64,000 bases of DNA, taken from positions 1-64,000 of the forward strand of contig VXAA01004313.1 in NCBI GenBank assembly GCA_013399115.1, given 5' to 3'. A program made the position numbers and the translations under genes. This DNA is from Anseranas semipalmata (taxonomy: Eukaryota > Chordata > Aves > Anseriformes > Anseranatidae). Below the pieces are notes generated by a model. The model was not told where the DNA came from, did no database searches, and saw only the letters and a list, made by a program, of their open reading frames with translations. Positions 13,301 to 55,143 of the stretch are shown piece after piece. The stretch's first letter is position 1; every line of letters starts with the position of its first letter.

Positions 13301-14007
13301 AGACATCTCTGTGCACGTCTGTCTGGGGTGACTGTCACTCTAGGAGCAGATGGAGTTTTTAAAATGCTACAGGTAGTGCAGATCTAACACCAGAATGAAC
13401 AGGGTTGCATTTTTGCACTTCTTAGTGAGTTTTAGAATGAAATTTAGGTGCAAACAGATAAAGAATCAATATAAGAGACATGGCCAAAGTTGTTTTTGTT
13501 TGTTTGTTTTTGTTTTTTGTTTTTTTGGTTTTGGTTTTTTTTTTTTTTTTTTGAAATTTAGGTCTGAGACCTATAAAGTTGCATTAAAACTTCTGTTTGT
13601 TCCCCAGGCCTTAGTGTCACTTGACTGTCAGCATGATCTTAGTATAAAATTAAGCATCTCCACCAAGAAACATAGAAAATATAGTGTGTTTGTTTATTTC
13701 TTTTGGATTTTGTGTGTGTGTGTTTTGAAGGAAAAATATGAACTGGGAAATACAGCTAAAGCCATAACTGAGGAGAGCTGTAGAAATGAAAATTAAAGGC
13801 AAATGAGAGCAAAAGGGATGGAATACTAATAAACATAACATTCATCTGAATTCAGTGTCATTCACATTAGGGTAAACTAGGTTTATGTTAAAATTAGCAC
13901 CTACTTCCTGTACCAGGGCTGTCTGGATTTACTACAGAGTGGACATTATAAGATGTCGTCCTTATACTACCGAATCACCAAAGACTTGAAGCTTTCTTTT
14001 CTTACAG
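10309..14007. other. Unique non-coding sequence with T-rich low-complexity tract
   Basis: Intron-like sequence without a supported gene. The minus-strand frame at 11533-11904 and the plus-strand frame at 13395-13796 are open, but neither is a recognisable protein; the second runs through a poly(T)-encoded F-rich tract. An AT-rich block at 12455-12830 contains homeodomain-like TCATTAATTATCATT words. Confidence 0.45.
13491..13552 (+). repeat. T-rich / (GTTT)n low-complexity tract
   Basis: GTTT units grade into long T runs interrupted by G pairs. On the opposite strand it would be an A-rich tail-like sequence. No retrocopy was recognised on its minus-strand 5' side. Confidence 0.9.
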
Positions 14008-14015
14008 CAAATTCA

Positions 14016-14616
14016 CACAATCACAAGGTCGCAGACTGGCTGAGGTGGGAAGGGACCTCTGGAGGCCACCTGCTCCAACCTCTGCTCAAGCAGGGCCACC
14101 TACAGCAGGTTGCCCAGGACCATGTCCACATGGCTTCTGAATATCTCCAAGGATGGAGACTCCACAGCCTCTCTGGGTAACATGTGCCAGTGTTCAACCA
14201 CCCCCACAGTAGAATTTGTTTCCTGATATTCAGACAGAGCCTCCTGTGTTTCAGTATGTGCCCATTGCCTCTTGTCCTGTCACTGGACAGTGCTGAGAAG
14301 AGCCCGCCTCCCTCTTCTTCATTCCCTCCCACCAGGTATTGGTACATACCGTTAAGATCCCCCCTGAGCCTCCTCTTCTCCAGGCTGAACAGTCTCACCC
14401 CTCTCACGCTGTCCTCACATGAAAGAGGCTCCAGTCCCTTAATCACCTTAGCGGCCTGGTGCTGGCTGGACTCTCTCCCGTAGGTCCACATCTTGCCCTG
14501 GGGAGCCCAGAACTGGGCACAGAGCTCCAGGTGTGGCCTCACCAGTGCTGAGCAGAGGGGAAGGGACCCTTCCTTTGACCAATGCTGCTCCTAAAGCAGC
14601 CCAGGCTGCTGTTGGC
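14016..14616 (-). mobile_element. CR1 LINE, 5'-truncated, minus strand
   Basis: Read on the minus strand, this copy encodes in one long frame (14021-14542) a decayed ORF2 C-terminus. It starts RPHLELCAQFWAPQGK, continues through IKGLEPLSCEDSVRGVRLFS and LEKRRLRGDLNGMYQYLVGG, then DRTRGNGHILKHRR. These are standard CR1 landmarks in the right order. The 3' UTR follows, with a CTGCTTGAGCAGAGGTTGGA-like tail and a degenerate TTGTGATTGTGT-like end near 14016-14030. The 5' break is at about 14616. Immediately beyond it, after 9 bases, a 7SL RNA pseudogene begins in the opposite orientation. Confidence 0.95.
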
Positions 14617-14625
14617 ATGCTGTTT

Positions 14626-14812
14626 GCTGGGCGTGGTGGTATTCCCTTGCACTCCCAGCTATTTGGGAGGCCGAGCTCACTGGACCGCTTGAGCCCACTA
14701 TGCCAAGTGTCCACACTGATCTCCAGCAGCATGGTGATCCCCAGGGAACTCAGGGCCACCAGGATGACTACGGAGGGGTGAGACAGCCTAGGTTGGAGGA
14801 GGTCAAAATTCA
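14626..14812 (+). pseudogene. RN7SL pseudogene: 7SL (signal recognition particle) RNA pseudogene, 3'-truncated
   Basis: The first 50 bases (14626-14675) align without gaps to the 5' Alu-domain of vertebrate 7SL RNA, with GCTGGGCGTGGTGG at the exact 5' end and CCCAGCTATTTGGGAGGC further on. After a deletion of roughly 25 nt, the S-domain follows: ACTATGCC, AGTGTCCACACTGA, CATGGTGATCC, AGGGCCACCAGG, CGGAGGGGTGAGACAGCCTA and GAGGAGGTCAAAA. The S-domain part rules out an Alu-type SINE, which lacks it. The copy ends at about 14808-14812, short of the 3' part of the Alu-domain, and has no poly(A) tail. SRP RNA normally scaffolds the co-translational targeting particle. This copy has lost part of helix 5 and the 3' end, so it cannot work. 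Confidence 0.88.
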
Positions 14813-16122
14813 TTGCAATAGAAAAATCGAAGCTGAGAAATTATTAGTTGTGGATTTCAAACCTAGAAGGGAAGCAAATTGTTTTAAATGTGCTGTGTTT
14901 TTAAACTATTTAATGATAGCTTGACTTATTTTTTAAGCCCACATGGAGACTTTTATCACATGTTCAGCTAACTAAATGGTAGCTATTTGTTTTCTAAACT
15001 AGTTTTCTAGGCTTTAACTCCTAGGTTGAAGAGGATGTATTACCCTACCTTGCCATTGACACAAAGGGAGACCAGGTGACTAGTTTATGCAAGACACTTA
15101 GTCTTCAGGTATAGAATTAGGTAAGACAAAGTTCCTGATCCTCCACGTCACACACCCACATGGACACACACACTGGTTGGGCAATGTAATTAGCACTGAC
15201 CAAGCACATACCTCTTCCCAAGCCTGCACAGCTGGGCAGAGATACACCACCGCTGTGGCTGTACTTGCTCAGGGTAAGGCCAGGCACTGTTTCATCCTTT
15301 GTGTCTCACCCTGTATTGTTGGAGTGATAGTGAAAACAGTGAGCTCTGGGGCATTGTTGTTGTTTCCCACAGGCACACCGCACTGTTTGGGAAATTTCTT
15401 CAGAATTTTCTCCAGCTGCTCTTCTGGACTTCAAATGCATTGTTGGGATTGACCTTGGTTAAGTCACTCACGTTGCAAAATGGGCTGAACAACTAACCAC
15501 ATGTCTCATCAGACCTTCGCTTCACCAGTGAGTATTTCTGTGAGTGCCACGCTTCACTGCCAACTACACAGAATACTTTTCTAGGCATCTAGGATAGAGC
15601 CTGCTTTCAGGACATGTCTATCAGGACGAACATCGACTCCCGGAATGTAGACACAGATATGTCTGAAAAAGCAAGCAGCAAGTTATGGTTGTTTTCAAGC
15701 CTCTTCTGAGCCAAGAGGAGGCCTCAGGGGTACATCTCAAAGTGTAAAACAGTGACCAGATTAAAGGAGATTTAAAGCACAGATTAAAGGAGCCCTTATT
15801 AGAGTACACATTAGAAGAAGTAGGACAACTAGAACATTTTCTCAGGATGTGCTCAGAACCACACAAGAATTGTTTCAAAGAGCAGTGGCTTATGACTAAA
15901 AGAGACAGTTTAAAGTGTTTTTGGACATCATGTGTCTCTTGTCTTTACCACAGGTTTAGCCTTGCATGGACAAACAGTCCAATTCCAGCACAAGGGGTGT
16001 TTAATTTCTTATTAAACTATGCTGTTCGTATGTTGGCATTGTTTGAAGCAATAGTGCATGTTAGATTTTTATGCTCTGACTCTTATGACACCTCTTCTCC
16101 ACCCTCCTTGTGTTGAATGCCC
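14813..16122. other. Unique non-coding sequence
   Basis: No supported gene. A possible MIR-like remnant lies at 15427-15487. A 12-bp word AGATTAAAGGAG occurs twice, 23 bp apart, at 15758 and 15781. Nothing else was recognised. Confidence 0.45.
15427..15487 (+). repeat. Possible MIR-like SINE remnant
   Basis: GACCTTGGTTAAGTCACTCA followed closely by AAAATGGG resembles the core and following part of the ancient amniote MIR family, with a deletion between them. The tRNA-related head is not convincing. Chance similarity remains likely. Confidence 0.28.
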
Positions 16123-48088: not shown

Positions 48089-49390
48089 TTGAGAAAAATG
48101 AAAATCAATAACATCATACTTCTTGTGTATGACAGAATCACGGAGCAATTGCAGATTATCTACTGTGTGATCCAGAACAGCCACTACTCTACATAAAGGT
48201 GTTGTCTCAAATTAATAGATATGAACAGATTTTACCTTGTTCTAATTTGGCTGGTGTAGAACTTCACAATTTCCCTCTGTGTATCAAATGGGGTAAGCAT
48301 GCCTCGTACTTTTTGTTGCGTGCACAGCTCACTCTGGTACTGGGTGCTCCACATGTTTTGCAAGCTTTACAGTTATTTTTGTAATGAACATCTTCCAAAC
48401 ACAATGCAAGACTGATTTCATAATAAGATGGGGTAAAGTGCAGGTGTGTCATTAAGGAAAGCCTGGATGATTAGAGTGGCATGATACATAAATCAAGACT
48501 CGGGAGAATGGGTTGTTTGGCATCACTCAAAGGCAGCTTCAGTTAGATGCTGAAAGCAGGGATGGAGCTGGGCTGGGACTGGACCAGGGAGCGTGGGGTC
48601 TGCAGGTGCCAGGCAGCAGGCAGCTGAACCAAGAGGCAGGTGGCTGTGCCATGCCACACTGAGCCGCACTGTGCTGTGCTGTGCTGTGTAAAGACAGCCT
48701 TTCCCCCAAAAAGATAAATTTCAACATCAGTCAACCAGGAGATGCATTCCCAAAAGTTGTGATAATGGGATTCTCTACTACCTACTCCCTTCAATTTGCT
48801 GCCAGGAGAGGTCCTAAACCAAAGAACATGTTGTTCTAGCAGGGCTGTGGAGGAAGGCTCCCAGAACCCCATCTTGCATCAGTCCTTATGTTAGGGCAGT
48901 GTAAGGTCTGACTGTGCACCTCTGCTCACTCTGCACTTCTGCTGTCTGTCTGCAGAGAACAACGCTCTGGTATCTAACTAGAGGCAGCCATTACACCTTG
49001 CTTAACTGATTACCCAAAATTGTCTTTGCAACATCTAGTCCGTGACAGTAGTATCATTTTATATCTTCCTTTTGGAGGCTGTTTTAAGTTCCTTGTTATA
49101 TCTATATTTCTTCTAAACTTACCTCTCTAGATTGAGAAGGGTGCTGATCAGGAATGGCTAATGTACAGACTTTGAGCATCATGTGCATAGCTAATGTCAA
49201 GGTTGTACCATGTGGTAGGCATCCAGCTGTGGCCCAGGGTTTTTTGAAGAGCCAGATGTAAAAGGGAGTGAGCCAACTGCAGCTTCTCTACCCATTGTCT
49301 CCTGCGGTATGTGAAATATGCCTCACAGCTCTCAGCCATAATAAGATTTTAGCATGTGCCTCCCAAAGCCAGGAAAACCAGACATTCCTG
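48089..49390. other. Unique non-coding sequence
   Basis: No supported gene. A short (CTGTG)n run is at 48669-48688. Confidence 0.45.
48669..48688 (+). repeat. (CTGTG)n short pentamer repeat
   Basis: About four CTGTG units in tandem. Confidence 0.85.
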
Positions 49391-49513
49391 ATCATAGAAT
49401 CATATAATCAAAGAATGGCTTGGGTTGGAAGGGACCTTAAAGATCATCTGGTTCCAACCCCCCTGCCATGGGCAGGGATGCCACCCACTAGATCAGGTTG
49501 GCCAGGGCCTGAT
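49391..49513 (-). mobile_element. CR1 LINE 3' end, minus strand
   Basis: The sequence starts ATCATAGAATCATATAATCA, which is the reverse complement of the CR1 terminal repeat. It continues GGCTTGGGTTGGAAGGGACC, TTAAAGATCATCTGGTTCCA, ACCCCCCTGCCATGGGCAGG and CACTAGATCAGGTTGGCCAG, a nearly textbook avian CR1 3' UTR. It is one of the best preserved copies in the window and so relatively young. CCTGAT occurs at both borders (49387 and 49508) but is too short to call a target-site duplication. Confidence 0.95.
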
Positions 49514-52112: not shown

Positions 52113-55056
52113 TATCTCTACCCAAAGGCAGACAAACCTAATTCAAATTTTGCATTGACTGGCTTAATGTTGAAATCTTTCTACAACTGAAACTCCCACT
52201 ACATTCATTTGTTAAAATGACATTCGAATAAACCTGATTATTTTTTTCTCTGCAGTAGGACAACAACATTTTTTCTTCGGCTACACACTTTGTCCATGCA
52301 AGTGCTGCTTACCTAAAGCTTTCTGTTTTAATGGCCCGAGCACATACTCCATGCTAATCCTTGGCAGCTTGTATCACTTGTTATGTGCAAAAACATAACT
52401 GCCTGCTTTCCTCCTTACCAAAAATCCTACTTGTGACCCAGACATATACAAGCTGTGCCTCAAAGTAGACTGATTTAATCATTTGAATCACTGTTTTAAT
52501 TATGATTTACTTTGGCAGATGGAAATTCCTGACTTGAATAGTTGATTTTATCTCCTTTTCCATTTTCACATTTTTGTTATTTCCCCCCACAAAAGTTGAT
52601 TAGTAATCTCATTGATTAGTAATCTGATGTTTATTTGCAGCAGAATGTAGCCTCTACTTTAAATTGGATCTTCTTTTTGCTAATCACTAACACTCATTCT
52701 CTACATACACACTTATTCAATATGACATATATTTATTCAGATTTCTAATATTTGTATTTTACTATGCTAGAAAAAGGTAACTGATGTTTCTTAGAGCTGA
52801 TTTCTTTTTTATTCCTCAGTGGTGTCACGCTACCTTCAGCTGCACATCGGAACTCAACTATAACACAAACATGCAGAATTTTAAAGTAGTGTTTTATTAG
52901 CTAAATAAAATCAGGTTAAATTCAGTCATTCAGCATCTGTGCTCTTTCTTTTTGCAGGTACACATCAGATACTTACAAAGAAAGAAAGCGGTTGCATTTA
53001 GCAAGATGCAAGGTAACCAGTTGTATATGGACAACCAAATGATCTGTGGAATGCTACAGTTAAGGGGCAGGAGGCAAGTCTCATTTTCAGAAGTAAGCGG
53101 TGAATCACTCAAAGGATTGGATTCGCAGCTAGGACTTAAGTCTTGGTACTGCAATAGTGCTGTGGTCTTTTACAGACAACAGGAACAGTGTAGATAATCT
53201 GTGGTTTGTTTATACCAGAAACAGATTATGACAGTGATGTCAAAATATTTTTTTTGGTAGGAAATTAGAGTTTACATAATAGGATTTTATTATAGTTTAT
53301 GTAGTTATTTCCAGCTGTTTCATGGCAGCGCTCTTTCAGACCATGGAAATGTTGTCTTTTCTAACCTTACATCCCAATCAGACTTCTTGAAAGGTTGCAC
53401 ATAAAATACTTGCCACCATCTACAGGCAGAAAGAAATTGGCAGGAGGTGTTTTCTGTGAGAGGTGCTTAACTGAGGAGTTGGCACCACACCTTGAACTGA
53501 AATAGCCTCATAGGCATGCTGCAAATATTCTCCTATTGCCCAGACTTCTCAGCAGGGGGGGACTTGGCAGGGAGCTAAGGTCTGTATGAAGGGTAGATTC
53601 CGTGATCTGTTTAGTTAAGATCTAACCACCAAGCATACTTATTTTACTGGCAGTTGCTGATAACCCTGCTGGTCATCTGCTAGGTTTGCCAGATTGCTTT
53701 TGTAAGCAAATCGGGGATACCGATAACTTTCAGACTGGTGCCTCTTTCTGGATAGGAAAAAAGACTTCTCACAAGTGAGGAACTCTCTTTTCTGTTGAAT
53801 AGGCTGAGGCTATCAAATAATGAGCATACTCCCTATTTTTGAAGAAAAAAAAAAAAAGTCCACATACCAAAGAGCCAAAAATAATAAAAATGTGTCAGTG
53901 ATCCTACTGTATTTCTACTGTACTCTGAACAGCAACACATGCTTATTGGAGATTGCTTTACAATTGTGATAGCAAAGTTGATAATGCAGTAGAAATAGAT
54001 CACACTAGTAAAATATGATCTCTTTGTTTTGGTTGACAGATGTCTCAGATGGATTAAAACACATGGGTGCTGATGTAACTCCAGCCTGACAAAGGCTAGG
54101 CTAGAGGGGAAAGGAAAATGGGTTCATCCATAGCTGAGCCATATAATGCGAGACGTATAATTCAATGGCTTATGCAAATAGGACCAGGTGTCCCTAATAC
54201 CTTCTTTAAATGGAGCGTACCTGGAGTGCAGTATCTCAACATTACCATCTCAACATTATTTCACAAGTACTGGCAGTAGCAATGGGGTTTACAAGATCCT
54301 ACTTTTCTTCCTCTAGTTCAAGAGCAGCTTACCAGAGTGCTCTCACAAGGCTGAGGCTCTGAAACATGCCAGTGTCCACAGTTGTAGAAGCACTGTAAAT
54401 AATTCCTGATATTTAATCACAGTGCTTGCTATTAAAATGTCACGAATAGCTACATAGTCCCAGTGTTTCCCTGTCATCTCCCTTTTGGGAGATTTTACGT
54501 GAGATTTTGAGTCCACTCCTGAAGCTGATTCTGCTAATGACACAGACACCGTGACCTTGGTGAAGTGATTTACAGCTGGCTCCACAAGAGACTTTGGTGT
54601 TCCAGTGATTCATTGTTAGACCAACTCACATGCAATGGGATCTCCAGCCTTGCGAAGGGCACTGCAGCTCTCCTGCACAAAAGCCTGTGTGTTGTTGAGG
54701 GCTGAAGCAAAAACAACAAGCTGACTGAGAAACTACCTAAGCTGAGTCAAGGCCTTACCCCTTAATGCTTGTTAGGTATCTAATTCCCAAGATGAAGAAT
54801 ACGGACTTGTCTTCAGTCAGACTTTCACCATGAATTCCATTCTAGAGACAAATTCTACACAGAAAAGGTAAGTTATTCCTAAGGGAAAGAGGAATACACA
54901 GATATGTGGATTTTCTGATTAACTGAAACATATTTACCCCTTGATTACTGAAAACAGCAGATCATTTCAGAGCTGTTCTCAGAAGTCAGGAATGATACTC
55001 TTGTGAACTTTTATGCAGACATATAAGACTTTAGAGTATTTCCTGGGCAAGCAGCT
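52113..55056. other. Unique non-coding sequence with small tandem duplications
   Basis: A 16-bp tandem duplication, TTGATTAGTAATCTCA then TTGATTAGTAATCTGA, is at 52596-52627. ATCTCAACATTA is doubled at about 54233-54260. The frame at 52952-53197 follows a pyrimidine-rich TTTTTGCAG acceptor-like site but encodes nothing recognisable. No gene is called. Confidence 0.45.
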
Positions 55057-55143
55057 CTTGGTGGCCCTGCTTGAGCAGGGGGGTTTGGACCAGATGACGC
55101 CCAGAGGTCCCTTCCAACCTCAACCATGCTGTGATTCTGTGAT
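55057..55143 (+). mobile_element. CR1 LINE, extreme 3' end
   Basis: CTTGGTGGCCCTGCTTGAGC, then GGTTTGGACCAGATGACGCC, CAGAGGTCCCTTCCAACCTC, AACCATGCTGTGATTCTGTG is a clean avian CR1 3' UTR ending in the terminal repeat. Heavily 5' truncated, plus strand, relatively young. Confidence 0.95.

Follow-up and report, generated by a model that had tools for sequence, protein, structure and literature searches.

A CR1 LINE and a truncated 7SL RNA copy joined head to head in a bird genome, a candidate product of twin priming on two RNAs

How do a CR1 LINE and a 7SL RNA copy come to lie head to head, in opposite orientations, between two copies of the same seven bases? Sequence reading and alignment gave this arrangement at one locus in the window (the whole stretch of Anseranas semipalmata DNA analysed, 64 kb, including 15 N bases). 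On the plus strand, the order is AAATTCA, an antisense CR1, the nine bases ATGCTGTTT, a sense 7SL copy, and AAATTCA again, with 7SL nt 1 at the inner junction and the CR1 3′ end at the outer side:

14009-14015, plus strand: left AAATTCA, putative target-site duplication; its final two bases fall within the CR1 tail octamer
14014-14616, minus strand: CR1 LINE, running from a decayed 3′ octamer tail and truncated on its 5′ side within the C-terminal region of ORF2
14617-14625, no strand: junction ATGCTGTTT, with filler and decayed CR1 indistinguishable
14626-14808, plus strand: 7SL RNA copy, nt 1 to 216, 3′-truncated at an internal AAAA
14806-14812, plus strand: right AAATTCA; its opening three bases are also part of the 7SL AAAA

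The initial annotation had described a minus-strand CR1 truncated at its 5′ side near 14616, a plus-strand 7SL copy running from its exact 5′ end (14626) to an internal site at about 14808, and an AAATTCA common to the outer borders. The CR1 is borne out by bird protein relatives and a further CR1 copy in the window, and the 7SL copy by alignment with human 7SL; the AAATTCA match is exact (14009-14015 and 14806-14812), though its strength is qualified by overlap with the elements. As argued below from the arrangement of these parts, a single CR1 retrotransposition event using two RNAs is the best-supported explanation, and probably the right one.

The element at 14014-14616 is one that we take to be CR1. 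It contains a minus-strand ORF (14021-14542, 173 aa) for which a protein search found 1807 of 1842 candidate proteins to be relatives; among the 120 matches listed, those with a named organism all come from birds (Mycteria, Grus, Limosa, Tinamus, Struthio, and others), and several carry the name reverse transcriptase. No Pfam family was found for this ORF. Searches for relatives of the locus in viral contigs, in genomes of bacteria and archaea, in phages, and in plasmids came back empty (two pattern matches among viral contigs were not relatives). At its outer end, the octamers CACACAAT, CACAAGGT, and CGCAGACT (14014-14037) have, by inspection, 1, 3, and 2 differences respectively from CACAGAAT; the motif is presumably that of the CR1 3′ octamer tail, (ATTCTRTG)n. 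The element combines a retained LINE 3′ end and truncated 5′ side with an avian CR1-type ORF2 C-terminus and an octamer tail. A second copy lies at about 1011-1771 (72.8% identity by blastn); in pairwise alignment, 446 of 564 aligned sites are identical, and a second alignment gives 75.9% over 584 columns.

The 7SL part aligns from 14626 to 14811 with nt 1-219 of human 7SL with a score of 131; 500 shuffles gave no score above 40, and no window tile outside the locus exceeded 39. It has a 21-base internal deletion and smaller gaps, and ends at an internal AAAA (nt 213-216, at 14805-14808). Past 14808 there is no further 7SL (score 14, with 288 of 500 shuffles as good; other strand 12, with 467 of 500). 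Rfam backs this identity only weakly, below the curated threshold: the Metazoa_SRP model scores 18.4 bits at 14727-14813 and 9.1 bits at 14626-14725 (gathering score 70), the Alu-like mir-1268 model scores 31 bits at 14624-14675 (gathering score 83) and is the sole match in the surrounding 5 kb at E 0.1, and nothing in the window reaches a gathering score. The fold predicted for the copy looks unlike the SRP fold, and no conclusion is based on it. A 7SL-derived SINE would be expected to have many copies genome-wide; within the 64 kb window the count is one.

Between the two parts, the initial annotation had seen a nine-base junction that might be filler. The nine bases ATGCTGTTT are there, but decayed CR1 accounts for them equally well: 658 of 1997 random 9-mers from the window match the continuation of the CR1 as well as they do. 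A local alignment extends the CR1 homology through ATGCTGTTT with a 2-base gap. With two bases gapped, TTTGCTG is common to the CR1 of copy A (the copy at 1011-1771) and window positions 14623-14629, a match inseparable from chance; taken at face value, it means that the CR1 may reach the 7SL and have GCTG in common with it. The 5′ edge of the CR1 is accordingly uncertain by about 9 bases, and could extend as far as 14625-14629.

Two simple ways of joining the parts fit poorly with this anatomy. Template switching or RNA ligation is disfavoured, since both parts would then have one orientation, and here they are opposite. Nesting of the 7SL within a longer CR1 was rejected: with the 5′ CR1 sequence of copy A as query (positive control 116, reached by 0 of 500 shuffles, maximum 37), the right flank contains no CR1 in the orientation of the composite (score 19, with 320 of 500 shuffles as good), so that the CR1 does not resume beyond the 7SL. 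The same query scored 27 on the opposite strand of the right flank (10 of 500) and 20 and 24 in the left flank (152 and 39 of 500). The value of 27 is nominally unusual, but scores of 20-27 are read as noise beside a control of 116.

Twin priming with two RNAs, the origin put forward in the initial annotation, would give the arrangement directly, the model itself supplying the simultaneity, the acting enzyme, and the order of the steps. The CR1 protein would nick the target, and the plus-strand 3′ end (…AAATTCA) would prime reverse transcription at the 3′ end of the CR1 RNA, producing the minus-strand CR1; synthesis of this cDNA would halt inside ORF2. A staggered second nick would release the minus-strand 3′ end (…TGAATTT), which would anneal to the internal AAAA of 7SL RNA (nt 213-216) and prime synthesis running precisely to the 5′ end of this template. 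Joining of the two cDNA 3′ ends, with few filler bases or none, would leave CR1 and 7SL head to head between copies of AAATTCA. In this single-event model, the pre-insertion site would have been one AAATTCA between CTTACAGC and TTGCAATAG. Part of the proposal stands on what is observed: the layout, the truncations, a repeat found at the outer borders and not at the inner one, and 3-4 bases of homology at the priming site. This homology, in which the AAA of the putative duplication falls on 7SL nt 213-216 (14805-14808), hinges on the duplication being real.

In 20,000 draws of paired random 20-base pieces with a similar AT content, 1.8% had a seven-base match; with tighter bounds (13 × 11 bases, composition unmatched) the figure was 0.29%, again in 20,000 draws. 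The window has 36 occurrences of AAATTCA on both strands, against 26 expected from shuffles. On the left, the CA falls within the CR1 tail octamer CACACAAT (14014-14021), and on the right, the AAA falls within the 7SL AAAA; because both copies overlap element sequence, they count for less than a match of seven independent bases. More of the left copy could even be CR1 tail, the next octamer frame leftward, AGCAAATT (14006-14013), matching the tail unit CACAGAAT at 4 of 8 positions. A chance match is unlikely, but not overwhelmingly so.

These same overlaps bear on the possibility that a double-strand break captured CR1 and 7SL cDNAs by end joining, with AAATTCA arising by chance or as microhomology at the break ends. 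The chance rate of 0.29-1.8% and the possible filler at the junction are also in keeping with such a capture. It has less to say about why a repeat should be present at both outer borders, or why the CR1 should retain a 3′ end with its octamer tail, the usual outcome of target-primed insertion, and we regard it as quite improbable.

Whether CR1 elements duplicate their targets at all could be considered from the three other CR1 copies that blastn identified in the window, with borders chosen by eye:

1011-1771 (edges approximate), plus strand: CR1 copy A, with TAACA (5 bp) near both borders (1006-1776)
49393-49507, minus strand: CR1 copy C, with CCTGAT (6 bp) directly at both sides (49387-49513)
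55039-55143 (edges approximate), plus strand: CR1 copy B, with AGTA (4 bp) close to each border; on the right it overlaps the end of the CR1 alignment

Copy C, with tail CATAGAAT (also given as CATAGAATCATATAATCAAAGAAT), is a clean small CR1 insertion with an exact 6 bp target duplication, and is the only one of the three with a clean border repeat. Copies A and B are weak controls because short words are common by chance (at least 5 bases in 26% of 20-base draws, at least 6 in 7%) and because their borders were set by eye. For copy A, moreover, the left TAACA lies at an uncertain edge of CR1 homology, and the CR1 controls were given less weight on this account. Bird relatives bear out that the 5′ part of copy A, the source of the flank query above, is itself CR1: 83 of 130 fetched proteins match it in one frame, 60 in another, and none in the third. 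Copy A also has an internal T run at about 1578-1590.

If the two parts had inserted separately, a duplication might be looked for around each of them. The inner border has no word longer than 3 bases in common with the left border and none longer than 4 with the right, so that the 7SL copy has no duplication of its own by this comparison; the 7 bp repeat encloses the whole composite and nothing comparable encloses either part, subject to the chance rate of 0.29-1.8% and the weakening by element overlap. One two-event history would nevertheless leave the same outer repeat: a 3′-truncated, tailless 7SL copy flanked by AAATTCA would have come first, and a CR1 would subsequently have entered precisely at the boundary of the left AAATTCA and the 5′ end of the 7SL. 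The CR1 would then have had to hit one exact position and end there with no duplication of its own (3 bases between left and inner borders), although copy C demonstrates, more cleanly than the weak copies A and B, that a CR1 can duplicate its target.

The seemingly somewhat greater divergence of the 7SL part would suit a two-event history. Human 7SL and this copy disagree at 33 of 155 non-CpG sites (an upper bound, since the bird-human difference is included) and at 14 of 28 CpG sites; the alignment has 33 gap columns. Between the composite CR1 and copy A there are 118 differences in 564 sites, copy A's own changes included, and in 94 three-way columns the copy-specific changes number 6 in the composite CR1, 5 in copy A, and 11 in copy B. 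On these small samples, into which the bird-human 7SL difference also enters, the 7SL copy may be older than the CR1; the data are compatible with equal and with unequal age. Weighing this against the positional precision needed, we consider two separate events unlikely.

A rearrangement (inversion, deletion, or mis-assembly) that brought together an unrelated CR1 and 7SL pseudogene might be entertained for an old locus with several indels. That 7SL nt 1 begins exactly where the CR1 stops, and that the outer borders have a repeat in common, makes it very improbable indeed.

Composites of the kind proposed have been described for mammalian L1. Inverted, 3′-truncated U1, U2, U5, and U6 snRNAs joined to 5′-truncated L1 were explained by twin priming with two RNAs (PMC4476161). 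They resemble the present locus in having a 3′-truncated RNA opposite a 5′-truncated LINE, a duplication around the composite, and complementarity between target and RNA at the priming site; unlike it, they involve L1 in mammals, and snRNA instead of 7SL. The one bird candidate of that paper is a 5′-truncated U6 beside a CR1-like element in turkey, which a sequence gap leaves unresolved. RNA/LINE-1 chimeras including 7SL, 5S, and tRNA have also been reported, the antisense partners being attributed to twin priming (PMC13174262). Here too 7SL is among the partners, and the 5S pieces commonly begin at the junction and stop internally; the differences are that these are LINE-1 chimeras of the human genome, with single-event origin inferred from multi-species alignment.

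Other known insertions have only part of this anatomy. Tailless, 3′-truncated small-RNA copies, including 7SL, are found in human and chimpanzee (PMC2912911), while no tailless retropseudogenes were identified in chicken (PMC5322556). These copies likewise are 3′-truncated and have no tail, but they have their own duplications and are linked to L1, whereas the 7SL copy here has none of its own. An ordinary 5′-truncated CR1, such as copy C, keeps its 3′ end, is truncated in ORF2, and has a short border repeat; the composite adds an RNA copy in opposite orientation at the 5′ side.

For CR1 and its relatives, the published picture is less favorable. In the work covered by PMC4245944, 5′ inversion was confined to human L1 in human cells, plus one Nimb-2_DR insert in chicken DT40; ZfL2-1, which makes duplications of about 5 bp, produced no 5′ inversion in either human or chicken cells, and overhangs of this length, the authors suggest, may be too short. 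The same paper cites, for L2 elements, a duplication peak of 3-5 bp as closely resembling that of the CR1 clade; PMC2169234 gives CR1 as having no target-site duplication. Copy C favors the short-duplication view over that statement.

Taken together, a single event using two RNAs is favored by the orientation and truncation pattern, the contrast between an outer repeat of 7 bp and inner matches of 3 and 4 bases, the absence of CR1 after the 7SL and of 7SL past 14808, the 6 bp duplication of copy C, the same anatomy in the published snRNA/L1 chimeras (PMC4476161), and the attribution of antisense partners in other L1 chimeras to twin priming (PMC13174262). It is weakened by the outer repeat being partly element sequence, by the somewhat greater divergence of the 7SL, and by the ZfL2-1 result (PMC4245944) and the reported lack of duplication in CR1 (PMC2169234).

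The initial annotation knew of no CR1/7SL inverted chimera in birds. None was found in the open-licence PMC literature, among the matches listed, nor in the extracts of PMC5389967 and PMC4992247; the same class of chimera has, however, been described for mammalian L1. Given the chimeras of PMC4476161 and PMC13174262, this kind of event is already known. The mechanism itself is published, and any novelty would lie in the setting: an avian CR1 that leaves a short duplication.

CR1 is regarded as selective for the 3′ end of its own RNA, and this has been offered as a reason for the scarcity of retropseudogenes in birds. If true, the CR1/7SL composite would separate a strict choice of template at the first nick from a loose choice at the second. 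It seems conceivable, as a tentative reading that we hold with some doubt, that avian CR1, whose target duplications are short and which strictly selects its own RNA at the first nick, can use twin priming to take up 7SL RNA at the second, on a primer match of 3-4 bases. Small-RNA pseudogenes would then be rare in birds because 3′-end stringency acts at the first nick only, other RNAs being accepted at the second. The composite is also relevant to the proposal in PMC4245944 that second-strand priming may need overhangs longer than about 5 bases.

Nothing indicates a function for the composite, an old and decayed insertion. A 121-codon antisense open frame (14448-14813) extends from the right flank across the 7SL into the CR1. 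In a protein search with it, 10 of 35 candidate proteins matched at E ≤ 0.01, and no alignment to these 10 proteins extended over the 7SL part by more than one residue; all 10 strong matches lie in the CR1 part (four of the sequences were read), and the frame as such is probably meaningless.
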